Source: Caldisericota bacterium (lineage in GTDB: Bacteria; Caldisericota; JANLFM01). Taken from it: a DNA stretch of 18,461 nt. The translations under genes and the position numbers were made by a program. The notes beneath the pieces were generated by a model that made no database searches, had not been told where the DNA came from, and saw only the letters and a list, made by a program, of their open reading frames with translations. Positions 470 to 14,435 of the stretch are shown here, piece by piece (position 1 is the stretch's first letter; each line of letters begins with the position of its first letter). The DNA lies in the NCBI GenBank assembly GCA_024655865.1, contig JANLFM010000024.1, positions 4,130-22,590 on the forward strand, in the 5' to 3' direction.

Positions 470-495
470 GACGAACTTACCCTTCAAAATGTACC
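470..495 (-). promoter_or_regulatory. ECF-type promoter (GGTACA-N16-CGTC)
   Basis: On the minus strand GGTACA (495-490) is followed by exactly 16 nt and CGTC (473-470). The architecture is that of ECF sigma promoters such as SigW/SigM of Bacillus (TGAAAC-N16-CGTA/C). The predicted start near 463 gives a leader of about 47 nt. The same spacing recurs at four other exported-protein genes in this window. Confidence 0.55.
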
Positions 496-663
496 CATTT
501 TTCCCAAATATTTTTAATTTCTTAACTCCGGTGAAGGAGAGCCTTTTCGTGCTTTCCTTGATCTTCCCAAATAAAAAATAGTGTCAGGTCTGATTTTTTC
601 TTATTAACAATTTAAAAGTCAGCCGTATAAGGAAAAGAACGCCAGCCTAGCAATATTCACAGT

Positions 664-1410
664 TTAAGGGCTCAGGGCTTTGGGGAGAAGATCACTAAAC
701 TGAGGATCAATGACCTCAATCTTAGCCTGAGAGATTAATTGCTCTGTGAAATTATCCCAGAACTGCTGAAATTTTTCCTTTAAAAGCCCCTGCTCTAAAA
801 TTCCTTGAGGGGCATCCTCAAATTCTGGATGTCTGGATTTGAAATCCTGGACCTCCTCTGGGGTAGGTGCAGGCAGACTCTGACGTAGACTATCTTTTAA
901 GCGATTGATGGTGAGAGTAACACGATAAGATGCAGGGGCCATCTGGCTCCAATATTCCTCCTCGGTAATCCCCATTCCCTTGAGGAGTTCCTTGAGGAAT
1001 TCCTTCCCTTCGGGATCCGCTTCAGGGGCTTCCAGGAGCTTGCGCTGCTCTTCCGCGAAAGACTTTGCCTCTTCCTCAGACACCAAAAATCCTTTCTTGA
1101 GCGCTTCGGTATACAATACAGCTTGCCTCAAGATACTGTGCAGGGCCGCAACTTTAGCTTCTTCCTCCGGCATCCGGTCATTCTTAGGGTTTAAGCGCAC
1201 ATTATCGTAGGCCGTAGTCCACCACCTCTCGGTGATAGGTTCCCCATTCACGGTAAGGAACACTCGATCGGTTTTATTTCTCCAATTTTCTCCTATAAAG
1301 AATGCCGTAGATTGCCCTCTCAGACCATGATAGGAGAAGAGAACGCCCAAGGTGGCGCTAAGAATGACAATCAAAACTATTCCTAAAAGGAAAAGGGTTT
1401 TTTTCTTCAT
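664..1410 (-). CDS. membrane-anchored SurA-N-like chaperone without PPIase domain
   Basis: A 248-residue protein with an N-terminal membrane anchor or uncleaved signal (residues 5-27), then a helical extracytoplasmic region. Residues 48-62 (VFLTVNGEPITERWW) and the following charged helices up to about 175 resemble the N-terminal chaperone domain of SurA/PrsA peptidyl-prolyl isomerases. The C-terminal helix (about 200-233, ending QAKIEVID) resembles the strand-helix that closes that domain after the parvulin insert. The ~95-residue parvulin domain itself is absent. The protein is therefore likely a holdase for exported proteins and not an isomerase. The start has AAGGTGA 4 nt upstream. It lies 13 nt after the stop of the exported Cys-containing protein and shares its ECF-type promoter, so that protein may be its client. 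Assignment to the SurA-N fold rests on sequence pattern only. Confidence 0.7.
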   Translation of the reverse strand: MKKKTLFLLGIVLIVILSATLGVLFSYHGLRGQSTAFFIGENWRNKTDRVFLTVNGEPITERWWTTAYDNVRLNPKNDRMPEEEAKVAALHSILRQAVLYTEALKKGFLVSEEEAKSFAEEQRKLLEAPEADPEGKEFLKELLKGMGITEEEYWSQMAPASYRVTLTINRLKDSLRQSLPAPTPEEVQDFKSRHPEFEDAPQGILEQGLLKEKFQQFWDNFTEQLISQAKIEVIDPQFSDLLPKALSP

Positions 1411-1423
1411 GGCTCACCTTCCT

Positions 1424-1954
1424 TTAAAAGCTGATTAGGGCCGTATTTGATATATACCAGGGCATGGCGTTAGAAAAAGCCTCTGTTACAGCATTGCAAG
1501 AATCATTATAGGCGGGCCAGAGATTGATGTCCTGGTTAATATCTCCTCCCCAAACTTCCTCGCCTATGGGAATCCATACTCTCCCATACCAATTATCGGG
1601 GATTTGAACCTCAGCCACAAAGCTTCCATTGGCGTAATACCTATTTCTTCCAGTACAATCTACCAAGAATCCGTCGGGCCAGGTGCTTATGTTTTTAAAA
1701 AACCCTCCGTGTTCGTGCCAGTACACAATACAAGTGCAATAGTAGCCACTTCCATTGTAGTAATAATTGAAACCCGCAATCCTTGATGTGACCACTGCTA
1801 CCGGTTGGTAGACCCCCTGGACTGGGTAGAAAAAGTTGAAAGTGCAGAGATCTCTATATTCCTTGATCAAAGCAAAGGCAGGTGCGGGAAGAAGGATAAA
1901 TGCAAGGATTAAAACCAAAAGCATTCCTACCTTGCAGATTCTTAACCTCTTCAT
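1424..1954 (-). CDS. exported Cys-containing protein, unknown function
   Basis: A 176-residue protein with a typical Sec signal peptide: MKRLRICKVG, a hydrophobic core at 10-22, and APAFA cleaved after about residue 28. The mature part is rich in Tyr, Trp, Asn and Gly, contains five cysteines (one near 37, a CTC pair, DCTG and DSC), and looks all-beta. The cysteines suggest disulfides outside the membrane. I recognise no family. The start at 1954 is fixed by GGAGGTGA two bases before the ATG. The upstream GTG in frame falls inside the leader hairpin and is rejected. It is the first gene of an operon with the SurA-N-like chaperone (13-nt gap) and is driven by the duplicated ECF-type promoter/leader. 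Confidence 0.75.
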   Translation of the reverse strand: MKRLRICKVGMLLVLILAFILLPAPAFALIKEYRDLCTFNFFYPVQGVYQPVAVVTSRIAGFNYYYNGSGYYCTCIVYWHEHGGFFKNISTWPDGFLVDCTGRNRYYANGSFVAEVQIPDNWYGRVWIPIGEEVWGGDINQDINLWPAYNDSCNAVTEAFSNAMPWYISNTALISF

Positions 1955-1971
1955 TTTCACCTCCAAATTTT

Positions 1972-1995
1972 GGGTGTTTCCTCTTGCATACACCC
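1972..1995 (-). promoter_or_regulatory. 5'-UTR hairpin, copy B
   Basis: On the minus strand GGGTGT (1995-1990), a 12-nt loop and ACACCC (1977-1972) form a perfect 6-bp stem just upstream of the ribosome binding site. Copy A differs by a G-C to G-U change in the stem and a one-base deletion in the loop, both compatible with the same fold. Confidence 0.5.
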
Positions 1996-2006
1996 TTTAT
2001 TTGGAA

Positions 2007-2032
2007 GACGAACTTACCCTTCAAAATGTACC
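2007..2032 (-). promoter_or_regulatory. ECF-type promoter (GGTACA-N16-CGTC)
   Basis: GGTACA (2032-2027), 16 nt, CGTC (2010-2007) on the minus strand, identical to copy A. It would drive the exported Cys protein and the SurA-N-like chaperone. Confidence 0.55.
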
Positions 2033-2326: not shown

Positions 2327-3031
2327 TTATTTCACATCAAGGACGAAAAGAGGCAGGACTTCCCCTCTAAGGGAATAGGGCAGAAAAGTATTTTCTCCAA
2401 CTTTGATCTGAAAAACAGTTAAGGGAACTAGCCAGTATGAACCCGGAGTATCAAATTGAATCTCAATTGTGTCCCCGATGATTGCGCCCGGAGGAATTAC
2501 CAAAGGTTGCATCGAAACCTTTCTTGATACCTGCTTTTCTTTCCAGCTTCTCCCTGCTTGACCCTCTAATCCATATTCCAGGTCGAACGGTTTGAGCTCG
2601 AACTGGCCAAAAATGGTAGCGCTTCCGGTGTTCTCGAGGTAAAAGCGCACCGGTATTTTAAGGCCCACGATAGAGTAATTGGTATCCAGTCCCCAAACAA
2701 AAAGGATGCGAAGCGGGACAGGTAAGGTAACTCCTTCTAAATTCGCAATTTCCACTTCCTTCATGGTGATAGGGGTAGGAGTTGCGGTGGGGTAGGTCTT
2801 GGGATTGGGGAAAGGTTCCAGAAATCCCAAGGGAGCCATCTCCTCCCCGGCTGGTTTGTTCATTCCCTCATAAACGATTTTTTCCAGTAATTTGGGACTG
2901 GGAGGTTGTGGCTCCAGCGAATTTATGGAGGGACCGAGCGATGCCTGCGCCGCAGGCACTAAGGAGAGAACCAGGACTCCTAAAAAAATGCCAACTAAAA
3001 CCCGGCGCACCAGAGACTTATTCCTTCCCAT
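2327..3031 (-). CDS. exported protein with proline-rich linker and beta domain, unknown function
   Basis: A 234-residue protein. Residues 1-30 are a Sec signal peptide (two Arg pairs near the N-terminus, hydrophobic core 11-27, cleavage at AQA-SL). A Pro-rich low-complexity stretch (about 35-90, including TATPTPIT) follows. Then comes a C-terminal region (95-234) of alternating strands with turns such as ENTGSATIFG and DTPGSYW, which resembles an immunoglobulin-like beta sandwich. I recognise no family. AGGAGG lies 6 nt before the ATG. The gene is divergent from the membrane-anchored gene at 3301. Each has an ECF-type promoter in the shared 269-bp intergenic region, and a strong hairpin follows its stop. 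Confidence 0.75.
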   Translation of the reverse strand: MGRNKSLVRRVLVGIFLGVLVLSLVPAAQASLGPSINSLEPQPPSPKLLEKIVYEGMNKPAGEEMAPLGFLEPFPNPKTYPTATPTPITMKEVEIANLEGVTLPVPLRILFVWGLDTNYSIVGLKIPVRFYLENTGSATIFGQFELKPFDLEYGLEGQAGRSWKEKQVSRKVSMQPLVIPPGAIIGDTIEIQFDTPGSYWLVPLTVFQIKVGENTFLPYSLRGEVLPLFVLDVK

Positions 3032-3145: not shown

Positions 3146-3171
3146 GACGAAGAAGGAGAGAAAATTGTCCA
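3146..3171 (-). promoter_or_regulatory. ECF-type promoter (TGGACA-N16-CGTC)
   Basis: On the minus strand TGGACA (3171-3166), 16 nt, CGTC (3149-3146), then GTATAC. A sigma-A style -10 (TACAAT) overlaps it, but no matching -35 lies 16-18 nt upstream. It points at the exported-protein gene starting at 3031, with a leader of about 110 nt. Confidence 0.5.
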
Positions 3172-3203: not shown

Positions 3204-3229
3204 TGAACAATTTCAGTTACTTTTGCGTA
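3204..3229 (+). promoter_or_regulatory. ECF-type promoter (TGAACA-N16-CGTA)
   Basis: TGAACA (3204-3209), 16 nt, CGTA (3226-3229), followed by TATATAT. This is the copy closest to the known SigW consensus TGAAAC-N16-CGTA. A sigma-A reading (TTCAGT at 3212, TATAAA at 3234, 16-nt spacer) overlaps it and cannot be excluded. It drives the gene at 3301. Confidence 0.5.
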
Positions 3230-3300: not shown

Positions 3301-3750
3301 ATGGGAAAGAGGATCCTTTTTACGGTCCTTTCTGGAATTCTGGGCCTGATCCTGGGTGTGGTCCTGACCTATGGTCTGTTTATCCCTGCAGGATTTTATC
3401 TTTTTGGCGCCCCTACTACCTCGCCGAACGGGATGCCTCTTCCGGCTTGCATTTTGGTGCAGAACAACACCGGGGGACCCGTGGAGTTCTATCTGGATGA
3501 AAAGTTAATGGCGGTTATCCAGCCAGATAGTAACCAGACGAGCGAGCGCCTGGAACCGGGGAAACATCGCCTCTGGTACAAAACTGAGAATGGCGAAGTG
3601 GTAGTGATAGGGACGGTAGACCTTCCGCCGGATCGCATGGCTCTCTTTAATCTCATGCCCCAGGGAGAGTTCAGATGGATAACTGCCAGATGGGATTTCT
3701 TCTTTGACCCTTCTGCAATGAGATTTCTAGGGTATCCCCTGACCTCTTAG
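3301..3750 (+). CDS. membrane-anchored extracytoplasmic protein, unknown function
   Basis: A 149-residue protein with one N-terminal hydrophobic segment (residues 5-36) and no clear signal peptidase site, so it is probably anchored with the C-terminal domain outside. That domain (48-149) starts CILVQNNTGGPVEFYLDEK and continues with a PDSNQTSERLEPGKHRLWY region. This resembles the small beta domains with a PEGA-like 'leptgkh' turn, in which a decorated surface protein presents ligands or cell-wall contacts. The resemblance is weak. GGGAGG stands 5 nt before the ATG. The gene is transcribed away from the 2327-3031 gene. A hairpin follows its stop. Confidence 0.7.
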   Translation: MGKRILFTVLSGILGLILGVVLTYGLFIPAGFYLFGAPTTSPNGMPLPACILVQNNTGGPVEFYLDEKLMAVIQPDSNQTSERLEPGKHRLWYKTENGEVVVIGTVDLPPDRMALFNLMPQGEFRWITARWDFFFDPSAMRFLGYPLTS

Positions 3751-4082: not shown

Positions 4083-4778
4083 TCAAACAGTTCCCTTTTT
4101 TATCTCCAGGGGCCCGCGCAGGTCTTTGAAATAATAGTAGAGGGCAACAAGGTAAAGGATAAAAGAAGCCGCCAGGCCGATTCCCACACTTGCCGCCACG
4201 GATATTTTCTTATCCACGTGGAGCAGGCCTAAATAGACAAAAGCGCTGTGAAGGATAATTACCAGGGGCAAAGCGGCCGCTATGAGCCTGCGCTTGAACC
4301 CATAGGCTAAAAAGAAAGCCAGATCAATGTGCAAAAGGATAGCACCGGCGCGATCCAGGAAAAACACGAAGGAGGGCATGGAGTAGGTGAGGTTGCGGAT
4401 GGAGTAAAGGATATAGAAGCCCTCACCCAGCCCGAATCCTAGACCCAGCATAGCTCCGATCCAGAGAATGTTGCTTGAGGAAAGCAGCTTGAACCCACCC
4501 AGGAAAAGGAACTTGACCAGCTCCTGAAGTATACCCGCGATCAAGGCCAGGGTGATAGTGCGGATAAAGAAGGAGACGTCTTGAGGAAGAGAACCCAGAG
4601 CCCAATCCTGAAGTGGAGGTTGAGCCAGGGGAACAAGGAAGTAGATTCCCAAGCCCACTAAGAGCGCCAGCCAGGAAGACCAGCGGTTCCAGCCCTTCCA
4701 AGCGAGCGGCAGGACAATAGCCAGCCCGATGAGCAGAATCACAGCACCAGCGAATATAAGCACTCCGTATTCAGGCAA
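4083..4778 (-). CDS. PrsW/CPBP-like intramembrane protease
   Basis: A 231-residue polytopic membrane protein with about seven hydrophobic segments. Four polar motifs inside membrane segments match the glutamic-type intramembrane proteases (PrsW, YhfC, CPBP): QE86LVK, G-rich GFGLGE119GF, H150 in LLHID, and H177 in LHSAF. In PrsW the first motif is usually EE; here the first position is Gln. PrsW of Bacillus cleaves the SigW anti-sigma factor, which is relevant because this window carries an ECF sigma/anti-sigma pair and SigW-like promoters. That functional link is inference. Translation starts at TTG (4778): AAGGAG lies 8 nt upstream and there is no ATG nearby. No ECF-type promoter was seen before it. 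Confidence 0.65.
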   Translation of the reverse strand: MPEYGVLIFAGAVILLIGLAIVLPLAWKGWNRWSSWLALLVGLGIYFLVPLAQPPLQDWALGSLPQDVSFFIRTITLALIAGILQELVKFLFLGGFKLLSSSNILWIGAMLGLGFGLGEGFYILYSIRNLTYSMPSFVFFLDRAGAILLHIDLAFFLAYGFKRRLIAAALPLVIILHSAFVYLGLLHVDKKISVAASVGIGLAASFILYLVALYYYFKDLRGPLEIKKGTV

Positions 4779-5083
4779 TGCGTATTCTCCTTTTCCATTA
4801 GTTTTCCGAATTAGGATAAGGCTAAATCATCAGTTTCACAAGCTTATGTCCATATTGGAATTTGGAAGAAACTGAAACTTCGTCTATCATAGCGGAACTT
4901 GAAACCCGGAGGAATCCGATTTATTTGCCTTAAATAATATTTCCCTGAAGTACACGATCTTCCTACCATGCTGGTCTCTGGCCGCAAGGGGCTGATATTT
5001 AATTTGTCATTGGTGCTGAAAAAATGCGCTGAAATTTTACTCATCTGCTTTATTTCGAGCTAAAATAATAAAAAGTATTTAAA
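4779..5083. other. gene-free stretch between protease and pRiA4b-like genes
   Basis: No convincing gene on either strand. CAGTTTC (4831-4837) and GAAACTG (4868-4874) form a 7-bp inverted repeat with a 30-nt loop. The last ~40 bases are A/T-rich (TAAAAT, TAATAA) and probably hold the promoter of the 5084 gene. Confidence 0.55.
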
Positions 5084-5680
5084 ATGAGGAGAAAGTTCGA
5101 CTCTGTTTACCAATTTAAAATCACGCTTTTGGGCGTGAATCCGCCTGTTTGGAGAAGAATTCAGGTGCCGGAAACATACGACTTCTGGGAGTTGCACGTA
5201 GCGATACAGGATGCCATGGGCTGGTATGATTATCATCTTCATGAATTCTACATAAAGGATCCCCAAACGGGAAAGGAAATTTTCATAAGTATGCCTGATG
5301 AAGAGGACCGGGAACCCGAGAGAGTAGTATCGGAACTGGAGGCCAAGATTAAGGATTATTTTACTCTGGATAACTATAAAGCAAAATATGTTTACGATTT
5401 TGGCGATAATTGGGAGCACCAGATAGAGCTGGAAGCAATATTACCTCGCCAGATTGGGGTTAACTACCCCATTTGCATTGATGGCAAACACGCCTGCCCC
5501 CCTGAAGATGTAGGCGGGGTTGGCGGATATGCGGAGTTTTTGGAAATAATTAAGAATCCCAAGCATGAACGCTTTGAGGAAATGCAGGAATGGATTAACG
5601 GAGAATTTGACCCGGAATATTTTGACCCTGAAGAAGTAAAATTTGATGACCCTAAAAAAAGACTGAAAGAGCTTTTTTAA
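5084..5680 (+). CDS. plasmid pRiA4b ORF-3-like family protein
   Basis: A 198-residue protein matching the pRiA4b ORF-3-like family. It begins YQFKITLLGVNPPVWRRIQVP and continues with an amphipathic 'FWELHVAIQDAMGW' helix and the Y(D)YHLHEF motif. The family hallmark YDFGDNWEHQIELE follows, then a CIDGKHACPPEDVGGVGGY block. The family is widespread on chromosomes, plasmids and transposons, and its molecular function is not established. Here it ends in an acidic/basic tail. No Shine-Dalgarno precedes the ATG; the upstream sequence is A/T-rich, so translation may be leaderless or weak. It has no operon partner. Family assignment is confident. Confidence 0.85.
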   Translation: MRRKFDSVYQFKITLLGVNPPVWRRIQVPETYDFWELHVAIQDAMGWYDYHLHEFYIKDPQTGKEIFISMPDEEDREPERVVSELEAKIKDYFTLDNYKAKYVYDFGDNWEHQIELEAILPRQIGVNYPICIDGKHACPPEDVGGVGGYAEFLEIIKNPKHERFEEMQEWINGEFDPEYFDPEEVKFDDPKKRLKELF

Positions 5681-5689
5681 GAATTTTAA

Positions 5690-5772
5690 CTGCCTTCTTG
5701 CCCCTCGTAATTTGCACCTTTTTATGTTTTTTCTTTTTCTCCTGGCCCTTCTGCTCCGTTGCTGTTGAGGAT
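5690..5772 (-). repeat. degenerate dispersed repeat, copy 1
   Basis: Shares ordered blocks with 9517-9577: TGCC(C)T-CTTGCCCC, TCG(C)TAATTTGC, and CCGTTGC(T/C)GTT followed by AGG/GGGAT. The copies differ by small indels and a ~30-nt A/T-rich insertion here. Both lie between genes, beside GTCAGG-type motifs. Confidence 0.4.
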
Positions 5773-5907
5773 CTCCTTGTTTGGGAAAGCCACCCCCTGG
5801 TTTTCTGATTTCGGAAAACAATCAGGCGTTACAGCCGTACGCTTAAAGAGCAATGTTGAACTTCAGGACCTTATTCTCGGGTGCATTTAGGGTCAGGCAA
5901 ATACTTC

Positions 5908-5934
5908 CTTTGGTCAGATTACTTTGGTCAGATT
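5908..5934 (+). repeat. 14-bp tandem duplication
   Basis: CTTTGGTCAGATT occurs at 5908-5920 and 5922-5934. Its GGTCAG core resembles the element-end motifs elsewhere in the window. Confidence 0.6.
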
Positions 5935-6035
5935 TCCCGTTTACCTTTTAGAAGGGTAACCCGTTAAGGACTATGGATAAGTATCAATATTATTAGAAGG
6001 GCGGGTTGCAAGGCAGAAAACGACAAGAGTTTACG

Positions 6036-6611
6036 CTACCCCTTTTTGAAGAGCTTGAGCATCATGGCATTCATGCGTTCGTGCTGGCGCTGGTAACACT
6101 CGTAAACTACCCAGCCTGTAATCATACCGAGTATAGCTCCGCCCAAAATATCGCTTGGCCAGTGTACTCCAACGAAAATTCTGGCGATACCCATTATCGT
6201 GGAAGCTGCCAAAAACCAGGTTCCCAATTTTTTATCGAACCTGTACAGGACCATGCTCAGGGCAAAGAAAAAGATGGCATGGCCAGAAGGAAAAGATTGA
6301 AAATTCTCACTGAGTGGTGTGAGGAGAAGCTTGTGCACATTCTCCAGGGTGATAAAGGGACGGGGTCTACTAAAAATGGACAATATTACGGTTTTAATAA
6401 CGAATCGGGCAATGAGAGCGGCTAACAATCCCAGGGCAACCATTAATCTATTCTCAAGCCACTTCTTTCTTGGCCAGAAGATCAATAAGAGCAAAATCAA
6501 ACTGATTAGATACGGCATATACTCGGCAAAGAATATGCCCAGTAAATCCAGAAATTTAAAATGGCCGGCTAAACCATTTATGTATTGAAATAAATTAAGA
6601 TCCGGGTGCAT
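6036..6611 (-). CDS. PAP2 family membrane phosphatase (undecaprenyl-diphosphatase-like)
   Basis: A 191-residue integral membrane protein of the PAP2 superfamily, which hydrolyses lipid phosphates such as undecaprenyl pyrophosphate or phosphatidic derivatives at the membrane surface. It has the catalytic motifs in order: K73...RP83RP, PSG-H111 and R144-x5-H150-x3-D154 (RIFVGVHWPSD). The spacing between K73 and RP is two residues longer than the textbook KX6RP. Five to six hydrophobic segments are visible, and the length is typical for the bacterial BcrC-like group. The start at 6611 gives the usual N-terminus (LNLFQYINGLAG), although no Shine-Dalgarno precedes it. It is divergent from the PepSY-regulator-kinase module, so its promoter shares the intergenic region with the phased regulator boxes. 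Confidence 0.85.
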   Translation of the reverse strand: MHPDLNLFQYINGLAGHFKFLDLLGIFFAEYMPYLISLILLLLIFWPRKKWLENRLMVALGLLAALIARFVIKTVILSIFSRPRPFITLENVHKLLLTPLSENFQSFPSGHAIFFFALSMVLYRFDKKLGTWFLAASTIMGIARIFVGVHWPSDILGGAILGMITGWVVYECYQRQHERMNAMMLKLFKKG

Positions 6612-6717
6612 GGTTTTTTGTAAATTTTACGGCTTTAACCTCGATAGTATAGAGCATTGCCCCTTCATCTTCATGCAGGCTTCTTTTAAATAAGGGAAGG
6701 AAACCTGATTAAAAAAT

Positions 6718-6768
6718 TTTCATCAAAATTACAGGAAGATTTAATCTCAATTTCATCTGCCTTTCATC
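6718..6768 (+). promoter_or_regulatory. 11-bp-phased TTTCATC box array (OmpR/PhoB-type operator)
   Basis: TTTCATC occurs exactly at 6718, 6751 and 6762, and TTTAATC at 6740. All are in an 11-bp register, with a weak fifth slot (TTACAGG) at 6729. Tandem direct repeats at 11-bp spacing are the binding mode of OmpR/PhoB-family regulators, such as the one encoded at 7376. A -10 element (TATATT, 6778-6783) follows 9 nt after the last box, and the boxes occupy the -35 position. This is the layout of an activator-dependent promoter. Confidence 0.6.
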
Positions 6769-6777
6769 TCCCTCCCC

Positions 6778-6783
6778 TATATT
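6778..6783 (+). promoter_or_regulatory. -10 element TATATT of the PepSY gene
   Basis: Five of six match to TATAAT. No -35 consensus is present; that position is covered by the TTTCATC boxes. The ribosome binding site AAAGGAGG follows before the ATG at 6817. Confidence 0.5.
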
Positions 6784-6816
6784 GAGGGTAACCTTAAAAG
6801 AAAGGAGGTACTGAAA

Positions 6817-7290
6817 ATGAAGCTTAATCGCATTATCGCTCTGGCGGTGATCGCTCTGACCGTTCTTGCCATAGGAACTATTGGTGTCCGCGTGCTGGCT
6901 CAGCCGCAAACTCCCACAGTCAGCTCTCAGGTCTCTCAGGGCTCAGAAATAAAAGAGACTCCTGAGACGCAGAAATCCGCTCCAGACAATGATAACGTCG
7001 AGGTAAAAGAAGGGGATCAGAATGAGGCCAATGATCTTGAAGAGGCTGGAGCTGAGATAGAAGGAAGTTCCGAAGCAGGGGATCCTGTTCCTCAAGGAAC
7101 TCCCGCCATCACTTCGGACGCCGCTCAGAAAACAGCCGAGGCCTACCTCAACGTCAGTCCTGCTTTAAAGGTAACCCTGGATGATGAAAACGGAAAGCTC
7201 ATTTACAGCGTGGAATTTGCTAACGGGACCGATGTCAAAGTTGATGCCATGAGCAGTGCTGTTCTGGGTGCAGAAACTAGTGAGGAGTAA
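6817..7290 (+). CDS. exported PepSY-domain protein
   Basis: A 157-residue protein. It has a Sec signal peptide (residues 1-28, VLA-QP), then an acidic, Glu/Asp/Ser-rich linker (about 35-95). The C-terminal PepSY domain (97-152) begins with AITSDAAQKTAEAYLN and has the typical KVTLDDENGKLIYSVEF strand pair. PepSY domains are thought to modulate extracytoplasmic enzymes or sense envelope conditions. Here the gene precedes a response regulator/histidine kinase pair, a common arrangement in which the PepSY protein is a target and possible signal input of that system. AAAGGAGG is well placed before the ATG. A 32-bp palindrome lies between it and the regulator. Confidence 0.9.
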   Translation: MKLNRIIALAVIALTVLAIGTIGVRVLAQPQTPTVSSQVSQGSEIKETPETQKSAPDNDNVEVKEGDQNEANDLEEAGAEIEGSSEAGDPVPQGTPAITSDAAQKTAEAYLNVSPALKVTLDDENGKLIYSVEFANGTDVKVDAMSSAVLGAETSEE

Positions 7291-7375: not shown

Positions 7376-8065
7376 ATGCGCATTTTAATTGTCGAAGACG
7401 AGCACAAAATTTCCACCTACCTGAAGCGCGGCTTAGAAGAACAGGGCTATGCCGTTGATGCAGCTTTTACTGGATCCGAGGCTCTGGATTGGGTTCAGGC
7501 AGCACCTTACGACCTGATCATTCTGGACATCATGCTCCCGGAAATTGATGGCATTACTCTTTGCCGGGAACTTCGGGCACGCGGCATGCGGATGCCGATA
7601 CTGATGCTCACTGCTCGCGACGCAATAGAGGATCGGGTTACCGGACTTGATGCGGGGGCAGATGATTACCTCATTAAGCCATTTGCATTTAATGAACTTT
7701 TAGCCAGAGTACGTGCTCTTCTTCGCAGAAATCAGGATGCACCCAAGGTGAACACTTTGCAGGTGGGCGATTTAATTTTGGATACCCTCGCGAGACGTGT
7801 TTCGCGCGGAGGGAAGAGGATTGATTTAACTCCTAAGGAATACGCTATTCTGGAGCTTTTGATGAGGGAGCAGGGTCGCGTGTTAACTCGCACCCAAATT
7901 GCGGAACATGTCTGGAATTATGAAGTGTATAACCAATCCAACATCGTTGACGTTTACATCCGCAATCTTCGCCGCAAAATCGATGATGGCTATGAACTCA
8001 AGCTTATTCGAACTGTAAGAGGCGTCGGTTATCAGATTTCAGCGGAGAAGGATGAAACTCTTTAA
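7376..8065 (+). CDS. OmpR/PhoB-family response regulator
   Basis: A 229-residue cytoplasmic transcription factor. The receiver domain (1-118) has the acidic pair E7/D8, phospho-acceptor D51 (LIILDIMLP), T79 (LMLTARD) and K101 (LIKPF). The winged-helix DNA-binding domain (about 126-225) has the LTPKEYAILELL and RNLRRKID...IRTVRGVGYQI motifs of the OmpR/PhoB class. It overlaps the histidine kinase gene by 14 nt. The 11-bp-phased TTTCATC boxes upstream of the PepSY gene are its likely target. The ATG has no Shine-Dalgarno and follows a -10 element by 7 nt. Confidence 0.95.
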   Translation: MRILIVEDEHKISTYLKRGLEEQGYAVDAAFTGSEALDWVQAAPYDLIILDIMLPEIDGITLCRELRARGMRMPILMLTARDAIEDRVTGLDAGADDYLIKPFAFNELLARVRALLRRNQDAPKVNTLQVGDLILDTLARRVSRGGKRIDLTPKEYAILELLMREQGRVLTRTQIAEHVWNYEVYNQSNIVDVYIRNLRRKIDDGYELKLIRTVRGVGYQISAEKDETL

Positions 8066-9470
8066 GTCTCTTCGTTTCCGGTTCGCCTTCTGGACAGCCA
8101 GTATACTGCTCATTGCTCTGGTCGCTTTTGGTGTTTATATGTATGAATCTGTAGCGCGGGAATTGAACGCCTCTGTGGACAGTACTTTAGCTTTAAATGC
8201 CTCTCAGGTTATCTCGACCCTGAATTTTGAAAATGGCCAGTTAATTAATCCTGAAAGCGGGGTTTCCCAGGCGGAAGCGCCTGATCTGTTCGAATTGGGC
8301 ATTTCTTTCCGAATTATTTCTCAAGACGGCAGGGTACTCCAATCCCTCGGTCCCTTTAAATCCTTGCCTATTCCTGAAACGAGTGACATTCAAAACAGCT
8401 TCTATGCCACGTATACTGATTCCACAACTTTAAAGCCTTTCCGTGTTTATACTGTTCCGGTAATAGAAAACGGCCGCTCGATCGCTTTGGTTCAGGTGGT
8501 GCGAGATCTTACAAATGAGCAGGGAGCACTGCTTCGCTTGCGGAGCATCTTATGGTTCAGCATCCCCATATTGGCGCTTGTTGCTGGGCTGGGAGGGTAC
8601 TTGCTTGCTCTAAAAGCGTTAACCCCGATCGATAAAATCACTCGCACGGCGCGTCGTATTTCCGTTGAGGATCTATCTTCCCGCCTCAACCTCCCTTACA
8701 TAGATGACGAAGTGGGCAGATTAGCACGCACCTTTGATGAGATGCTCGAACGCCTGGATCAGTCCTTTCGCCGGGAAAAGCAGTTCATTGCTGATGCCTC
8801 TCATGACCTGCGGACACCACTTACCGCCATCCGGGCCATTATTAGCATGATCCTTGAAAAGCGCCGAACCGGGGAAGAATATGAGCAGGCCTTAAGGGAT
8901 TTGTGGGAGGAAACCGATCGTCTGCAAACACTAACCGAAAGCCTTTTGCAGCTTGTGCGCGCAGAATCCTCCAAAAACCAGATGGTTGAGACTGTTGACT
9001 TATGCACCCTTCTTCGCGATTTAAGCGAATCCTATAAACCCATCGCAGAAGCTAAATCTCTGGAGATGGCCATCGATCTGCCAGAGAGACTGGTCATTAA
9101 TGGCGACCGCGATAGCTTGATTCGACTCTTCGCCAATCTGCTGGATAATGCCATAAAGTACACAATGAAGGGAAAAATTACTTTATCCGCCTTAGAAGAG
9201 CGAGACGGTATGATTCAGGTAATAGTATCTGACACGGGAATGGGCATTGCCCCTGAACACCTTCCCCATATTTTTGAGCGCTTTTACAGAGTGGATAAAT
9301 CTCGTTCCGAGCCTGGCACCGGTCTTGGTCTTTCCATTGCCGCGGAAATTGCCAGAGCCCATAGAGGCAGAATAGAGGTGAAAAGCGTTGTAGGGCAGGG
9401 CACCACCTTTATCGTTTTTCTTCCTCAGAAAAAGGGGTCAGGTCTTGCAATCACACATTTTCATTCTTGA
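8052..9470 (+). CDS. sensor histidine kinase, C-terminus extended by a repeat
   Basis: A 472-residue membrane kinase. TM1 (12-31) is followed by an extracytoplasmic sensor region (32-165), TM2 (166-187), HAMP (188-240) and HisKA with H251 (ADASHDLRTPL). The ATPase domain has the N box (N362, NLLDNAIKYT), G1 (DTGMGI, 394-399), F box (FERFYRVDKS) and G2 (GTGLGLSIA). It phosphorylates the regulator encoded just upstream; the genes overlap by 14 nt, with GGAG before the ATG inside the regulator gene. Kinases of this class normally end near VFLPQK. Here residues 462-472 (GSGLAITHFHS) are encoded by the element-end repeat at 9434-9461, so the native stop has probably been replaced. The catalytic core is intact. 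Confidence 0.95.
   Translation: MKLFKSLRFRFAFWTASILLIALVAFGVYMYESVARELNASVDSTLALNASQVISTLNFENGQLINPESGVSQAEAPDLFELGISFRIISQDGRVLQSLGPFKSLPIPETSDIQNSFYATYTDSTTLKPFRVYTVPVIENGRSIALVQVVRDLTNEQGALLRLRSILWFSIPILALVAGLGGYLLALKALTPIDKITRTARRISVEDLSSRLNLPYIDDEVGRLARTFDEMLERLDQSFRREKQFIADASHDLRTPLTAIRAIISMILEKRRTGEEYEQALRDLWEETDRLQTLTESLLQLVRAESSKNQMVETVDLCTLLRDLSESYKPIAEAKSLEMAIDLPERLVINGDRDSLIRLFANLLDNAIKYTMKGKITLSALEERDGMIQVIVSDTGMGIAPEHLPHIFERFYRVDKSRSEPGTGLGLSIAAEIARAHRGRIEVKSVVGQGTTFIVFLPQKKGSGLAITHFHS
9434..9461 (+). repeat. element-end repeat captured in the kinase gene
   Basis: It begins GGGGTCAGGTCTTGCAATC. Bases 9436-9452 match 3862-3846 exactly in the opposite orientation. An imperfect inverted partner lies at 9603-9617 (GATTTGCAAGACCTC), so 9434-9617 could be a ~185-bp MITE-like relic. 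Confidence 0.5.
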
Positions 9471-9516
9471 ATCGCCTGTTTTCCGTAGGAGAAGCTCATC
9501 CGGCTATAAGCTAATT

Positions 9517-9577
9517 TGCCCTGCTTGCCCCGGACCCTGTCGCTAATTTGCCCCTGCCCCCCGTTGCCGTTAGGGGA
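9517..9577 (-). repeat. degenerate dispersed repeat, copy 2
   Basis: Shares ordered blocks with 5690-5772. Internally GCTAATTTGCCC(C)TGC occurs twice, about 32 bp apart (9510 and 9542). Confidence 0.4.
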
Positions 9578-9784
9578 TTGTTGAGCGTTACTCTTAATTG
9601 TTGATTTGCAAGACCTCGTACATTAAAAACGAAATGAACGCCCTCTCTTTCCCCAAAGGAGAGTTAAACTTGGAAAAGTGGAGAACAGCCAAGTTTCCCT
9701 TCCCACTCCAACCAGCGTTCACAAGTCAGGGGAAGGGAAGAAAGCCATGATCAGCAAGAGGAGAAGCAACCTAATCAGGTCCTG

Positions 9785-9952
9785 CTCTACGAGGGAACCT
9801 TGTCCGGAGCAAGGTACAACCCTCAGGTGAGGGGGATCTATCAGAGGCTCAAGGAGAATGGGGCTCCAGAGAAAAAAGCCGGGATCGCTGCTAGTCACAA
9901 ACTCCTGCTCAGCGCTCATGCCATTTACAAAAAGGGGTACCTACGATCCTGA
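9785..9952 (+). pseudogene. IS110/IS116/IS902-family transposase C-terminal remnant
   Basis: The frame ending at TGA 9950-9952 encodes the typical C-terminus of IS110-family transposases: an ARYNPQVRGIYQRLKENG block, then an EKKAGIAASHKLLLSAHAIY block. This matches the family pattern 'NP..r..y.rl...G...k.A..A..rKLL'. Only about 55 residues are recognisable. Upstream in frame the sequence becomes Gln/Glu-rich and does not resemble the RuvC-like DEDD domain. The remnant is too short to be functional, and no upstream part of the gene is left in the window. Confidence 0.6.
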
Positions 9953-9974
9953 CTGGCCAAAGGGGAGTTGACAT

Positions 9975-9995
9975 GAAATACAGTATCTGACCCCC
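9975..9995 (-). repeat. element-end-like motif (GGGGGTCAGATACTG)
   Basis: On the minus strand GGGGGTCAGATACTG is followed by TATTTC. It resembles the GGGGTCAGGTCTTGC motif at 9434 and sits just after the transposase remnant. Confidence 0.4.
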
Positions 9996-10067
9996 GGTAT
10001 CGTTTGTCGGACATAAGCGGTGTGGAAGCGGAGGAGAAGCGGAGTTGACTGCTCCAACTTTTTCTTT

Positions 10068-10838
10068 TCATTTCCCCCTTTGAAAAATCATGGAAATCAG
10101 AAAGATAAAGGCGCTAAAAACAATAATTAATGGTCCCGCTGGTAGGGTCGTACCCTTAGAAAGGGAGATCCCGACCGCTGCGCTTATTGCGCCAAAACTC
10201 AAGCTTAATAGCTTATATTGAGCAAGATTTTTAGCCAGATTTCTTGAGGAAGCAGCAGGTATAGCCACAATAGCAGCTGTTAAAAGCCCTCCTACTATTT
10301 TTACCCCCAAAGCGACAATTAAAGCGACCAATAAAAGGTAAATTAAATTGTATTTTTTAACATCGATCTTTCTCGCTTTTGCCAAGTCTTCGGAGACATT
10401 AATTAAAGTTATCGAGGGATAGATTTTCTGGCAAATTATGAAGATCAGGGCACACAAAATAACAGAGTAAATAGCCTCGTTAAGCTGGATTTTCGAAATA
10501 TCGCCCACTAAGGCGGCTTCTGCCTGGTCGATGGGCAAAAAGAAAAAAGCGATGGCTACACCAGTAGCAAAAACAACGGCTGTTAAAGCCTCCATCGGCA
10601 GTCTCGTCTTTCTTTCCAGAAACCAGATTAGAACTACTCCTAATATGACAAAGGGGAAAGCACCCAGAGAAATATCAAAGCCATAAATTAGGGCAAGGGC
10701 AATTCCTGGGAGCGCGAGATGGCCCAAGGGCCCTGCAGCCAAAGCCATCCTCTTGGAGAGCATTAGGGAGCCCAAAAAACCAGCTACTCCTCCGATGAAA
10801 ATCCCGGAAATTAAACTAAGGAGAAACTGTCCCGTCAT
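10068..10838 (-). CDS. metal ABC transporter permease (ZnuB/MntB type, ABC-3 family)
   Basis: A 256-residue permease with about eight hydrophobic segments, belonging to the ABC-3 family that imports Zn, Mn or Fe. Typical features are the N-terminal GGVAGFLGSLMLSKRMALAAGPLGHLALPG region, a VGGLLTAAIVAIPAASSRNLA block, and a final FGAISAAVGISLS helix pair. The substrate metal cannot be read from the permease. Its ATG lies inside the end of the ATPase gene (23-nt overlap), so the two are translationally coupled. No substrate-binding protein gene is adjacent on either side. The downstream neighbour is a mobile-element graveyard. Confidence 0.9.
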   Translation of the reverse strand: MTGQFLLSLISGIFIGGVAGFLGSLMLSKRMALAAGPLGHLALPGIALALIYGFDISLGAFPFVILGVVLIWFLERKTRLPMEALTAVVFATGVAIAFFFLPIDQAEAALVGDISKIQLNEAIYSVILCALIFIICQKIYPSITLINVSEDLAKARKIDVKKYNLIYLLLVALIVALGVKIVGGLLTAAIVAIPAASSRNLAKNLAQYKLLSLSFGAISAAVGISLSKGTTLPAGPLIIVFSAFIFLISMIFQRGK

Positions 10839-11526
10839 CTAAATGCCTATGTTGATAAAATTTTACTTGGCCTGAATACAGATCTGAAATTCTTTCTGGA
10901 GTTAAAATCTCCTTTGGCACCCCACTGCATAGCATCCTTTTATTTAAGCAAATAATCCTATCGGCCAGACTGTAAACGATTGATAATTCGTGAGTTACGA
11001 ACAAAATTGTTAAATTGTTTTCCTTCCTTAATTTCTCTAAAAGATTATAAACGGTTTCTTGGCCTCCAATGTCAATGCCGGTTAAGGGTTCATCAAAAAG
11101 CAGAACTTTGGGTTTGGAAGATAAAGCCCAGCCGATTAAAATTCTTTGAAATTGGCCGGAAGAAAGGTCTCCAATTTTTTTCTTCAGTATACCTTCCTTC
11201 AGCCCTATTGATTTCAAAATCCCTTTGGTTTCGTTTATAGGGATTTTACCCAAGTCAAAAAACTCCTTGACACTCAAGGGCACGTCCTTGATGAAGGGTA
11301 ACCTTTGGGGAACATAGCCAATTTCTACTCCCTCTTTCCACTCAATTTCTCCCTGATAAGGCAAAAGGGAAAGCAAGGTCTTAAGCAAAACAGTTTTCCC
11401 AGCCCCATTTGGTCCTAAAATTGCCAGAACCTCCCCCTCTTCCACCTCGAAGGATAACTCCTCCAGGATTTTTTCTCCCTCTAGTTCTACGTTCAAATTT
11501 TTTACTTTTAAAATTGTGTTTTTCAT
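10816..11526 (-). CDS. metal ABC transporter ATP-binding protein (ZnuC/MntA type)
   Basis: A 236-residue ABC ATPase with Walker A G38PNGAGKT45, Q-loop Q74 (YVPQR), signature L121SSGQ125, Walker B VLLFDE146 and switch His179 (FVTHE). The YVPQR Q-loop and length are typical of the zinc/manganese subfamily. The C-terminal tail contains HRHLDD, a possible metal ligand cluster. It energises the permease encoded by the overlapping downstream gene. AAAGG lies about 9 nt before the ATG. A 58-codon TTG-initiated frame ends 19 nt upstream (see the gap entry 11527-11857). Confidence 0.92.
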   Translation of the reverse strand: MKNTILKVKNLNVELEGEKILEELSFEVEEGEVLAILGPNGAGKTVLLKTLLSLLPYQGEIEWKEGVEIGYVPQRLPFIKDVPLSVKEFFDLGKIPINETKGILKSIGLKEGILKKKIGDLSSGQFQRILIGWALSSKPKVLLFDEPLTGIDIGGQETVYNLLEKLRKENNLTILFVTHELSIVYSLADRIICLNKRMLCSGVPKEILTPERISDLYSGQVKFYQHRHLDDGTVSP

Positions 11527-11857
11527 ATTTTTGAGCCTTTTTGCTTTATCTTAGGGTTTTCCGCTTCTTCAGGACTTCTTCAGGCATTTTTTGGACATTT
11601 ATTAGCTTGCCCTGTGTCCAAAGGATAACAACGGTACAAACGTAACTCTTGGGCAAGTCCTCGCTCTCATGGTTATCCTTTCTCACTTTGATTCTACACT
11701 TGGCGTCAAGAGTAAATAGCAATATGCACTACCTTCCTATGACTTGGCAGGGAGGGTTAGGAGGGTCTCACAAGGCTATCCGTTATGCTTTTGAAACAGC
11801 TAGTAACTGGAATGAACCCTTAACCCCCTTCCTCTTACAGTTGTGCCTTGCAGAAAA
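11527..11857. other. gene-free stretch, with one possible small ORF
   Basis: On the minus strand a 58-residue frame runs from TTG (11722) to TAA (11546-11548). It has GGAAGG nine bases before the TTG and ends 19 nt upstream of the ATPase gene. Its product (ending KMPEEVLKKRKTLR) resembles nothing I know and is too short to be a metal-binding protein. GGACA...TGTCC (around 11592-11614) is a short inverted repeat inside it. No Zur-like palindrome was recognised. Confidence 0.4.
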
Positions 11858-12943
11858 TTAAGGCAGGACCTGAAAGGGAAGTGTCCCTCCTTCTCTTATC
11901 CCGGCAAAGGGTACGAGGTCGTAATAGGTGAGGGAGTATTGCCCTGGGAGGAGCTCCGGAAAGCTCAGGGACAAAGAAAATTCCCCTCCCTTGATGGAGT
12001 AAACCCTCTCTTTCACGCCCAGACCGTCAGCCGAACAAACCTGGATCAATAAATACCTGTCTCGAGTAGATGATCCTACTATGTTCAGGCTCTCCCCTTT
12101 CTTGAATTGGTCTTTTTCCGGGCGAGCAACCAGGGAATCCAGAGTGGAGGGGGAGCCCTTTCCTGGAGGCTCGGGGAAGGGTTCCATTTGCTCTGCCTTG
12201 ATTTTCTCAAGTTTTTCCAGAGTCATGGTGGCTTCCAGGTTGGCTATTCGGTAAGTTCTCTGGCGAGGCCACCCGGATTGTTCCTCCAGCTCCTCCCTCG
12301 TTTGCGTGAGTTCGGTGCCGGAAGACGTGGTTTCGGGCACCTTGCTCCCAGTACTTAGTTTTGAGAGGGTAGGGCGAATCAGAAGAAAGCGCGCCCTTTC
12401 TGGAGGAAGGTTCAGGAGGCCGACTTGAACCCAGCGGTTCTCTTCGGGATAGTAGAGCCAGGCGTCACTGCCGTTAGCTATAAGTTCGTCCACTTGGCCC
12501 TGGAGTAAGTTTTTAACCTGGATTCGAAAGGTATCTTGAGAAAGGTACCAAACTTTAGCGGATTCACTCTCCACAATTTTCTCATCCAATTTCACCTCCA
12601 GACGCACCGTGTAGACCGATGGTCCCAAATAAAGTGAAAGATAATCGTTGCGGGCGAAGAGGGGAATCGTTCCCGGCCAGATCAGCGATACCAAAAGAAG
12701 AATCAGCAGAATAAAACTTAAAGCAGAAAGGGCCGGGACTAACCAGGGCTTAGAGGCACCCGCTTTTAGTGCCTCCGGCGGAGAGGGACGCAAGGTCTTG
12801 AGCAATCGAACCAGGGGTAGAAAGGAGAGGGCCTCCGGGTCTTCCTTGATTTCTTCGTAAGGAGGCCTCCGCTCCTCGAGCAGGGAGTCAATCATTTTAT
12901 CGATAGGTTTTTCCCGAAAACGCTTTTTATCTTTAAAACACAT
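11858..12943 (-). CDS. membrane anti-sigma-like protein with LolA/RseB-like outer domain
   Basis: A 361-residue single-pass protein. The cytoplasmic part (1-66) is charged and helical and lacks the HxxxCxxC zinc motif of ZAS anti-sigma factors. One TM segment (67-90) follows. The outer part has three regions: 105-185, with strands like YTVRLEVKLD, TFRIQVKN and DAWLYYPEENRWVQV as in LolA/RseB-type domains; a polar linker (195-275); and a beta-rich C-terminal domain (276-361, ending GQYSLTYYD...LPFQVLP). The start at 12943 is set by GGAGG 6 nt upstream. It overlaps the sigma gene by 11 nt, so expression is coupled. By position and topology it should hold the ECF sigma factor at the membrane and sense the envelope; this is inference. 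Confidence 0.7.
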   Translation of the reverse strand: MCFKDKKRFREKPIDKMIDSLLEERRPPYEEIKEDPEALSFLPLVRLLKTLRPSPPEALKAGASKPWLVPALSALSFILLILLLVSLIWPGTIPLFARNDYLSLYLGPSVYTVRLEVKLDEKIVESESAKVWYLSQDTFRIQVKNLLQGQVDELIANGSDAWLYYPEENRWVQVGLLNLPPERARFLLIRPTLSKLSTGSKVPETTSSGTELTQTREELEEQSGWPRQRTYRIANLEATMTLEKLEKIKAEQMEPFPEPPGKGSPSTLDSLVARPEKDQFKKGESLNIVGSSTRDRYLLIQVCSADGLGVKERVYSIKGGEFSLSLSFPELLPGQYSLTYYDLVPFAGIREGGTLPFQVLP

Positions 12944-13526
12944 CTTCTTCCTCCATTTCCAGGCCACAACTCTTCAACCTCTCCTTGAGGTACCTGAGGG
13001 AATTGATCATGATCTCCCTCACTTTGCGACGGCTACAGCCTAAAAAACGAGCGGTTTTTTCCTCAGAAAAGCGGCAGGTGAAGCGGAGATACAATAAAGT
13101 CTGCGCCAATTGCGGAAGTTCCCTGACATACTCTCCCAGCCGCTCCAGCACTTCATCTAAAATCAGACGGTCTACAAATTCCTCGGGTTCAGAGATTTCC
13201 TTAGAGTCAATGTTGAACCCCGGATTCCCTTCTTCCAGGAGGACGTATGTGCGATCCTTTAAGGACCGCAATTGGTCTATAAAAATATTGCGCAGGGTAT
13301 TGCGCAGATAGGAAAAAACCTGTTTTCCTTCTTTCATTCGAAGAACCTCTACATGGGGAATAATGCGACGAAAGGTTTCCTGGACCAAATCCTCTGCCTC
13401 CTCTTTATTGGCTGAGATGTAAAGAGCATAACGGTAGAGTGCAGGACGGTAAAGGGAGTACAGTTCCTTTAACCTGGCCAGGCTTTCCCTCTTATCCTGT
13501 TTGTTCTCTTTTGAATCCTGAGGCAT
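12933..13526 (-). CDS. ECF-type RNA polymerase sigma factor
   Basis: A 197-residue sigma-70 family protein of the extracytoplasmic-function group. It has region 2 (about 21-90), with the core motif AEDLVQETFRR (44-54) and the DNA-contacting FSYLRNTLRNIFIDQLR. An acidic linker follows, then region 4 (about 125-183) with the helix-turn-helix FSEEKTARFLGCSRRKVREIMINSL. The start is uncertain. I prefer ATG 13526, with GGGAAG just upstream, over ATG 13565 or GTG 13604, since those only add a non-conserved tail. The anti-sigma-like gene overlaps its 3' end, and the exported-protein gene upstream ends 109 nt before it. It probably recognises the NGNACR-N16-CGT(A/C) promoters in this window, including the one heading its own operon. 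Confidence 0.9.
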   Translation of the reverse strand: MPQDSKENKQDKRESLARLKELYSLYRPALYRYALYISANKEEAEDLVQETFRRIIPHVEVLRMKEGKQVFSYLRNTLRNIFIDQLRSLKDRTYVLLEEGNPGFNIDSKEISEPEEFVDRLILDEVLERLGEYVRELPQLAQTLLYLRFTCRFSEEKTARFLGCSRRKVREIMINSLRYLKERLKSCGLEMEEEDVF

Positions 13527-13543
13527 CTTCCCACTTTGAATCT

Positions 13544-13560
13544 GGCGGTGTCCTCCCGCC
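13544..13560 (-). promoter_or_regulatory. small hairpin upstream of sigma gene
   Basis: GGCGG and CCGCC flank a 7-nt loop between the exported-protein gene and the preferred sigma start. It may modulate sigma translation relative to the first gene. Weak evidence. Confidence 0.25.
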
Positions 13561-13635
13561 TTCATCAATGATAGGCCTGATTCGCTTTCGTGGCAAAGCC
13601 TCACCGCCGATCTGCCGGGGAAGTTGGGTTTTCCC

Positions 13636-14370
13636 TCACTGGAAGAAAAGGGTAACTGTGCCGCTGTAGTTGACAGTCTGGTCGTTGAGCGGTGAAGGGT
13701 TGTAAATCATAATCTCAAAGGATCGCGAAGGCTCAAGAGAGAAACCAGCTGTTCCTGAGCCATTGGAAAGCCTGGAATAGTAGAAGTTCGGTGAGTCCAG
13801 ATATTTGAAACCCACGTCGAGCACCTGATTTGAGGGAGTCCAATTCATGGAGATCGTGAGATAGATATAGCCAGAATAGGGACCGTAAGCAGCAATGTAA
13901 TTAAGCGCTAAAGAGCCCGAGATAGGAAAAGAAGTTTGCCAGACCTGGGGCTCAACGGCAGCCGGACTGTATTTTACGACCTTGATTTCCAGGGCTCCCT
14001 CGGGCGTGCGAGGAGATGATTCCCAGTCCAGAGTTTCCACGCCCAAAATAGCTACAGTGGGGCGCCGCAGGGGAGAGTTCGCTTTCTCCTCGAAATGAGC
14101 AAGGTCCACGAACTCCGAAATCCGAATGCTGGAAAGAGAAGCGGTCTCCTCTTCCAAGGAGACAGCATGCACGACCTCCATGGGGATCAGTTCCTGACCA
14201 TCAGGAGTGATCAACTTTCCGTCCTGAGGTTTGACTTCTATGGTCACTCCTGGATTTGTCGAGCCGGGAATCACCACTGCTTTCGCGGCGCTGGAACCAG
14301 GCAAAATAGAACTGAGGCCCAGGCTCAAGAGCAAGACCAATGCAAGCGCTAACAACTTTCTTATGCGCAT
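13636..14370 (-). CDS. exported beta-rich protein, first gene of the sigma operon
   Basis: A 244-residue protein with a Sec signal peptide (MRIRK, hydrophobic core 6-24, cleavage near SSAA-KA). A middle region holds ITPDGQELIPMEVVHAVSLEEE. The C-terminal domain (about 140-244) is a run of Tyr/Ser-rich strands (LALNYIAAYGPYSGYIYLTISMNW...) that looks like a jelly-roll or immunoglobulin-like sandwich. I recognise no family. The start at 14370 is supported by AGGAGGG 8-9 nt upstream and by the signal peptide; a longer frame to 14493 has neither. It is followed by the ECF sigma and anti-sigma-like genes in the same direction and is headed by an ECF-type promoter. It is probably a regulon member and may also feed back on the sensor. 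Confidence 0.75.
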   Translation of the reverse strand: MRIRKLLALALVLLLSLGLSSILPGSSAAKAVVIPGSTNPGVTIEVKPQDGKLITPDGQELIPMEVVHAVSLEEETASLSSIRISEFVDLAHFEEKANSPLRRPTVAILGVETLDWESSPRTPEGALEIKVVKYSPAAVEPQVWQTSFPISGSLALNYIAAYGPYSGYIYLTISMNWTPSNQVLDVGFKYLDSPNFYYSRLSNGSGTAGFSLEPSRSFEIMIYNPSPLNDQTVNYSGTVTLFFQ

Positions 14371-14409
14371 TATGCTTTCCCTCCTTCCTCTTGAACTTCC
14401 ATTCATATA

Positions 14410-14435
14410 TACGTAAAAGGAGGGAATTCCGTCCG
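14410..14435 (-). promoter_or_regulatory. ECF-type promoter (CGGACG-N16-CGTA)
   Basis: On the minus strand CGGACG (14435-14430), 16 nt, CGTA (14413-14410), then TATATG. The -10 side (TTTTACGTATATAT) closely matches the one at 3221-3234 (TTTTGCGTATATAT). It heads the operon containing the sigma gene, as expected for ECF autoregulation. Confidence 0.5.

Follow-up and report, generated by a model that had tools for sequence, protein, structure and literature searches.

Five promoter-like sites of similar sequence stand ahead of genes for exported proteins in a stretch of 18,461 nucleotides from an uncultured Caldisericota bacterium (contig JANLFM010000024.1, positions 4,130 to 22,590), referred to here as the window, and the question that this locus raises is what reads these sites and how far their use extends. 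The best explanation, which we regard as fairly probable, is that they are promoters with the core GNAC(A)-N16/17-CGT(C/A), read by extracytoplasmic function (ECF) sigma factors, within a chromosomal island for exported proteins that is specific to this species and encodes two paralogous pairs of ECF sigma factor and membrane anti-sigma protein of its own. The five sites are the following, two of them being copies of a repeat here called leader A:

470 to 495, minus strand: putative ECF-type promoter core GGTACA-N16-CGTC, leader-A copy 1 (direct reading, pattern search)
2007 to 2032, minus strand: putative ECF-type promoter core GGTACA-N16-CGTC, leader-A copy 2 (direct reading, pattern search)
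3146 to 3171, minus strand: putative ECF-type promoter core TGGACA-N16-CGTC (pattern search, leader-A matrix)
3204 to 3229, plus strand: putative ECF-type promoter core TGAACA-N16-CGTA, divergent, followed by TATATATA (pattern search)
14410 to 14435, minus strand: putative ECF-type promoter core CGGACG-N16-CGTA, at the head of the sigma operon and followed by TATAT (pattern search)

Direct reading of the sequence verified that an earlier note on this DNA had given the sequence, position and strand of all five sites correctly. They are the only matches in the window to the pattern NGNACR-N16-CGTM; dinucleotide shuffles of the window gave a mean of 0.49 matches and none of 200 reached five, a figure that overstates the significance of the sites because the pattern was drawn from them post hoc. 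All of them are non-coding and lie on the same strand as the next gene, with 39–114 nt between CGTM and the start codon (the 470 site, as read from the sequence, is about 53 nt ahead of the ATG at 416). As the note had also claimed, each of the five downstream proteins (87–416, 1424–1954, 2327–3031, 3301–3750 and 13636–14370) starts with a hydrophobic export or anchor segment. The ECF-like promoter features, namely an AAC-like –35 and a CGT –10 element 16–17 nt apart, are found in the five sites and in the leader-A repeat family, and the spacing at all five sites is AC-N17-CGT.

The 14435 site precedes an operon that encodes an exported protein, a sigma factor and an anti-sigma-like protein, in agreement with what had been proposed for it:

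13636 to 14370, minus strand: exported protein, encoded first in the sigma operon (hydrophobic export segment)
12933 to 13604, minus strand: ECF sigma factor with regions 2 and 4 (domain and family profiles)
11858 to 12967, minus strand: anti-sigma-like protein with a predicted cytoplasmic helical N-terminus, one transmembrane helix, a beta domain and a C-terminal Ig-like domain (topology, model)

The sigma factor contains only sigma regions 2 and 4, as expected of an ECF factor, and scores 68.7 bits against TIGR02937 (cut-off 42.9), with Sigma70_r2 matched at E 1.2e-12 and region 4 weakly, at E ~3e-4. Additionally, contig C41, which lay outside the view of the earlier note, carries a 48%-identical paralog of this sigma factor with a paralog of the anti-sigma-like protein (37%) directly 3' of it, and a leader-A copy, at C41:178, stands at the head of this second operon (C numbers denote contigs, with positions after the colon). 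The motif is thus found at the head of both paralogous sigma operons. No match to the sigma factor at E 1e-20 or better was found in 60 related genomes, a scan of named genomes returned distant ECF matches only, and within the sigma family the window and C41 proteins stand alone.

As regards the anti-sigma-like protein, its first 58 residues match a protein adjoining an ECF gene in genome G007 (E 1.6e-4), and the AlphaFold model places helices at residues 21–31, 44–47 and 50–58, a transmembrane helix at 76–96, then the beta domain and the Ig-like C-terminus, the N-terminal helices having a predicted local distance difference test (pLDDT) score below 50. The N-terminus has no Hx3Cx2C zinc motif, which is not required in class I anti-sigma domains (ASDI) (PMC7406223). 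The protein belongs to no Pfam family, its sequence matches no solved structure, and a fold search of the poor model returned generic Ig-like domains only. For the C41 paralog, a LolA-like match (E 0.18) is a lead only.

Part of the evidence that the sites are promoters comes from leader A, a repeat of about 100 nt that occurs twice in the window, whose own contig is C16:

420 to 517 (C16:4549 to 4646), minus strand: leader-A repeat (A/T tract, –35, –10, 5' hairpin, ribosome-binding site), heading gene 87–416 (repeat search)
1956 to 2057 (C16:6085 to 6186), minus strand: leader-A repeat, heading gene 1424–1954 (repeat search)
436 to 458, minus strand: hairpin GGGTGT...ATACCC of the 5' untranslated region, directly past the predicted transcription start (folding, direct reading)
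1972 to 1995, minus strand: hairpin GGGTGT...ACACCC of the 5' untranslated region (folding)

The earlier note had treated the 495 and 2032 sites as the two products of a single duplication. They are indeed copies of one repeat, but not the only two, since the element has 14 copies in the genome. Each consists of an A/T tract with a ATTTNNGAAAAA core, the –35 and –10 elements, the hairpin and a ribosome-binding site, and the flanks 5' of the A/T tract are mostly unrelated among copies. In the 14 diverged copies the invariant columns include A31, T33 and T35 in the –35 region and C48 G49 T50 and T52 T53 in the –10 region, while the spacer between them varies. When about 325 kb were scanned with a matrix trained on leader A alone, the top promoter-positioned match outside the repeat was the 3171 site, which is not homologous to leader A; a stronger match at C62:26286 overlies a coding gene. 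Both observations favour the ECF promoter reading, as do the presence of a site at the head of both sigma operons and the sequence CTTTTRCGTATATAT that the 3204 and 14435 sites have in common.

The hairpin GGGTGT/ACACCC, which starts about 11 nt past CGTC and therefore near the expected transcript start, supports the same reading, because its pairing is kept in most copies through changes such as G-C to G-U or U-A to C-G. In C46:4507 the hairpin is disrupted, and the C25, C36:4699, C36:3960 and G002 copies have another structure as their minimum-energy fold. If transcription started about 7 nt past CGTC, the hairpin would form the extreme 5' end of the RNA. A search for orthologous promoters in related genomes gave a single partial leader A, in genome G002 (E 5.7e-4, model positions 46–102, from CGTC through the ribosome-binding site), where it precedes an ortholog of a leader-A gene; this copy argues neither for nor against the –35 element, because its upstream half is not conserved. 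It was also observed that about half of the copies show complementarity between the Shine-Dalgarno region and CTTCCAAAT, just past the –10 element. An in-frame leader peptide was considered and rejected, the open frame through leader A differing among copies through indels.

A second repeat, class B (CGTACAGAATTTCCCTTTCACTCGTCTTTAAA), which is not recognisably homologous to leader A, is found at C36:309, 1721 and 6732 and at C41:6777, where its copies precede genes for small LuxR-type (LuxR-HTH) regulators, one copy apparently standing before a truncated gene. Several small contigs terminate in leader-A or class B copies (C46:2, C50:1 and C41:6777–6900), which suggests that these repeats interrupted the assembly and that the full array extends beyond what is visible here. 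Common ancestry of the 3171, 3204, 14435 and class B sites was also considered, since several pairs beat shuffles in local alignment, but the alignments were gapped and purine- or pyrimidine-rich, and only CTTTTRCGTATATAT in 3204 versus 14435 was retained from them.

The extent of the regulon was evaluated by pattern searches of the whole genome and by the neighbourhood of every match, with genes called by a codon-usage model. Matches were divided between a cluster of contigs (C16, C36, C37, C41, C46, C25, C40 and C50; 75 kb) and the remainder of the genome. On the cluster contigs 8 of 17 matches were promoter-positioned by automatic calling, against about 1.0 expected, and 13 of 17 by eye, the five that were added being short genes or starts missed by the caller. 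When repeats were collapsed, five independent promoter-positioned groups were obtained, namely leader A, class B, 3171, 3204 and 14435. Class B, lying in sequence that the reader of the earlier note could not see, is the one held-out independent group. Outside the cluster the situation is different: 4 of 83 matches were promoter-positioned against 2.9 expected, which amounts to the equality with random genes that the earlier note had named as a refutation, and the genome as a whole gave 100 matches, while the reversed control gave 116. A genome-wide regulon defined by the loose pattern is rejected on these figures, and the general envelope regulon that had been suggested is not supported; the motif belongs to this locus and not to the exported proteins of the genome at large, and the regulon is accordingly read as locus-confined.

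These null results also weigh against the ECF promoter reading itself, and they do so together with other points. The pattern was fitted after the sites were seen; independent sites are few, and class B is the sole group that is both held-out and non-homologous. The "exact 16-nt spacer" of the earlier note is not strict, because AC and CGT are 17 nt apart in 10 of the 14 leader-A copies and one base closer in the other 4. The assignment of the anti-sigma protein rests on position, topology and the weak N-terminal match in G007, its structural model being poor (mean pLDDT 46.5). Finally, a third ECF system, on contig C33, has a similar promoter, which weakens any assignment of the sites to particular sigma factors.

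This last point underlies the alternative that survives best, namely that the sites are ECF promoters, but that some or all of them are read by another ECF sigma factor, such as that of C33:117050, so that the window sigma would not be autoregulated. The genome holds about seven ECF-like genes, and GAACC-N16-CGTATATAG lies upstream of the C33 sigma gene, with the CGTATATA extension that is common to 3204 and 14435; the C33 sigma may thus read these promoters. GNAC-N17-CGTATA has 6 genomic matches against 7 for the reversed control, a count that is descriptive, since the C33 site had been spotted while the regions upstream of other sigma genes were inspected and before counting; three of the six lie inside genes and the three non-coding ones are 3204, 14435 and the site before the C33 gene, a distribution that also speaks for an ECF reading of the sites. 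On the other side, no such site was found in the 660 nt scanned upstream of the other ECF genes on C22, C55, C7 and C11, so that the motif does not mark every ECF operon, and only the two sigma factors of the island match its phylogenetic distribution. The autoregulation proposed earlier is therefore unproved: it is supported by the motif heading both paralogous sigma operons and weakened by the similar GAACC-N16-CGTATA before the C33 gene. On balance this alternative is doubtful as an account of its own, and it overlaps the best explanation, which holds whichever ECF sigma reads a given site.

A second alternative, which we consider rather unlikely, is that duplication alone produced the pattern: a cassette of promoter, leader and signal peptide would have been copied among paralogs and transcribed by the housekeeping or another sigma factor, the other three sites being chance matches to a flexible pattern. 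This would agree with leader A being a 14-copy repeat, with the lack of a genome-wide excess of the pattern, with signal peptides that are homogenised along with the leader, and with the TATATA/TACAAT runs beside 3204, 14435 and 3171, which could act as –10 boxes. However, sigma-70-type matches coincide with none of the five sites, and further points against this alternative are the –35 and –10 columns that stay invariant while the spacer varies, the recovery of 3171 by the leader-A matrix, and the motif at the head of both sigma operons. Very improbable is a third alternative, that leader A is a regulatory RNA and not a promoter, in which CTTCCAAAT past CGT pairs with the Shine-Dalgarno sequence ATTTGGAGG and hides it, because although the complementarity of 7 of the 14 copies is far above shuffled sequences (–9 to –12 kcal/mol, equalled by no more than 3 of 300 shuffles) and is retained in C37:1426 by a compensating change, it is lost in diverged copies (no better than shuffles in C16:2285, C25, C36:4699 and C40), the non-repeat sites have no such element, and most of the element would be located upstream of the transcription start that the promoter predicts.

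Under the ECF promoter explanation, the anti-sigma protein would release its sigma factor on an extracytoplasmic signal, after which RNA polymerase would start about 7 nt past CGTC or CGTA at the exported-protein genes. The same sigma-driven starts would occur at the small LuxR-type regulator genes and at the sigma operons themselves, where they would amount to positive feedback, with the window's own sigma among the factors that may recognise these sites.

The cassette appears to be modular. The proteins of C16:1442 and C46:3700 share 81% identity in their first 36 residues and 26% in their mature parts, whereas C16:1442 and C36:4761 share 34% in the first 36 residues and 43% in the mature parts. 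Likewise, the product of the C25 gene and its G002 ortholog share 72% identity in the mature part but only 56% in the signal peptide; the C25 signal peptide is instead 78–83% identical to those of paralogs in its own genome. The simplest reading of these comparisons is that promoter, leader and signal peptide were copied or converted as one block. More tentatively, the locus could be a secretion island complete in itself, with two ECF sigma/anti-sigma pairs dedicated to the expression of its many exported proteins. Expression would then run through a portable 5' cassette made up of an operator-like A/T tract, the ECF promoter, the 5' hairpin, the ribosome-binding site and the signal peptide. 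This cassette would move as one piece between unrelated mature domains and undergo concerted evolution, and a domain would enter the regulon simply by being captured behind it; this is possible, but we would not favour it at present.

The genes that follow the other four sites in the window, together with the foldase gene beside one of them, are the following:

87 to 416, minus strand: small exported protein with signal peptide MGKKIFLIVLLVSLTF, 37% identical to part of C37:6483–7220 (sequence comparison)
664 to 1410, minus strand: membrane-anchored SurA-N-like foldase, 3' of gene 1424–1954, with paralogs on C36 and C40 (domain match)
1424 to 1954, minus strand: exported aromatic-rich protein of unknown function, whose paralog C36:7059–7613 likewise adjoins a SurA-like gene (sequence comparison)
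2327 to 3031, minus strand: exported protein with a pro-segment in common with the glutamic-peptidase-like family (sequence comparison)
3301 to 3750, plus strand: N-terminally membrane-anchored protein with a weak BiPBP_C-like match and three homologs on C40 (domain match)

Two of these homologs, C40:4669–5136 and 6141–6608, are identical proteins of 155 residues within 1.5 kb, a recent tandem duplication. The effectors, which had been described as unrecognised, can be narrowed, and they likely include SurA-like foldases, C39-like peptidases and glutamic-peptidase-like proteins. The pairing of gene 1424–1954 with the SurA-N-like foldase recurs on C36; C16 and C37 encode Peptidase-C39-like proteins, and C25 encodes an M16 peptidase. 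The largest leader-A gene family (C36:4800–5696, C16:1442–2293, C40:1134–2036 and G002:7983–8831) encodes exported proteins from genes outside the window, and its members at C36:4800, C16:1442 and C40:1134 have no significant sequence match in Pfam or the PDB. The best fold match to its model is scytalidoglutamic peptidase (2ifw; Z 12.9, root-mean-square deviation 3.7, 162 residues aligned); the closest matches are eqolisin/neprosin glutamic peptidases, and other folds begin at Z 11.3. Its invariant Q156 and E238 are 82 residues apart, as are Q117 and E199 of the bacterial pepG1 of MEROPS family G1 (PMC3009609). The family therefore resembles the G1 glutamic peptidases (eqolisins) in predicted fold and in Gln/Glu spacing, and it differs from them in lacking a significant sequence match; because confidence in the model is low (mean pLDDT 50), the assignment is only a lead. 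The 2327–3031 protein has the pro-segment of this family, SPxLLEKIxYEGMxxPAGEEMAPxGFLEPFPNPK, without its catalytic part.

Comparison with the same-genus genome G001 places the sigma operon in a segment that this congener does not have:

4083 to 4778, minus strand: multi-pass membrane protein, a backbone gene also present in the congener, there beside an M3 peptidase gene (comparison with G001)
4779 to 14462, no strand: segment absent from G001 at this place, with an OmpR/histidine kinase pair, an ABC transporter and the sigma operon (comparison with G001)

In G001 (contig C33 there) only about 160 nt separate the equivalent of 4083–4778 from the M3 peptidase gene, which is followed by MFS and NIF3-like genes, whereas in the window the two flanking genes are 9.7 kb apart, with the sigma operon between them. 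The start of the 14435 site is 27 nt within the segment that G001 does not have. A sulfur-relay-like cluster that the present genome has on C25 lies near these backbone genes in G001. Contamination of the assembly is unlikely for C16 and C25, because both carry backbone genes with 50–89% protein identity to those of the congener and in the same neighbourhood. Two short sequences, at 9434–9466 and 9992–10046, recur at several further positions in the genome, the second also in the congener.

Taken together, a vague "envelope regulon" gives way to a bounded one, of about 14 cassette copies and at least four other sites, which sits in a locus absent from a same-genus genome and for which probable effectors, glutamic-peptidase-like proteins among them, can be pointed out. 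It also offers an example of how a regulon may grow by the joint copying of promoter, leader and signal peptide.

The earlier note had compared the sites with the SigW/SigM consensus of Bacillus, and this comparison holds in part. The SigW promoter is TGAAAC-N16,17-CGTA (PMC2375139), and the sites resemble those of the SigW and SigM regulons in their similar bipartite structure and CGTA/C –10 element. However, they are one register off, with AC-N17-CGT here in place of AAC-N16 to CGT: the –35 element is GNACA, and AC-N16-CGT is found in only 4 of the 14 leader-A copies, although N17 is also listed for SigW (PMC2375139). Moreover, the window sigma scores far under the family cut-offs, with 67.2 bits against SigM_subfam (cut-off 147.95) and 36.3 bits against SigW_bacill (cut-off 243.1), its SigW family scores being 36–43 bits. 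The sites are thus ECF-like without the SigW/SigM signature, and the sigma factor is neither SigW nor SigM; the target proteins are unrelated, and the pattern does not extend genome-wide.

The agreement is closer with ECF sigma/anti-sigma systems in general, whose hallmarks are AAC and CGT promoter elements, a linked anti-sigma factor and, usually, autoregulation (PMC8103513). As in such systems (PMC8103513, PMC7406223), the sigma factor has two domains, a single-transmembrane-helix anti-sigma-like protein is linked to it, the sites have AC at –35 and CGT at –10, the motif precedes the sigma operon and the targets are exported. Unlike them, two paralogous sigma systems are found within one contig set, the anti-sigma N-terminus has no zinc motif, the sigma pair was not found outside this genome, and the targets are confined to one locus, many being copies of one cassette. 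The locus would probably represent an ordinary kind of switch in an unusual arrangement: the kind of system is known, and what is unusual is that it is restricted to a single locus and uses one promoter-leader-signal cassette repeatedly.

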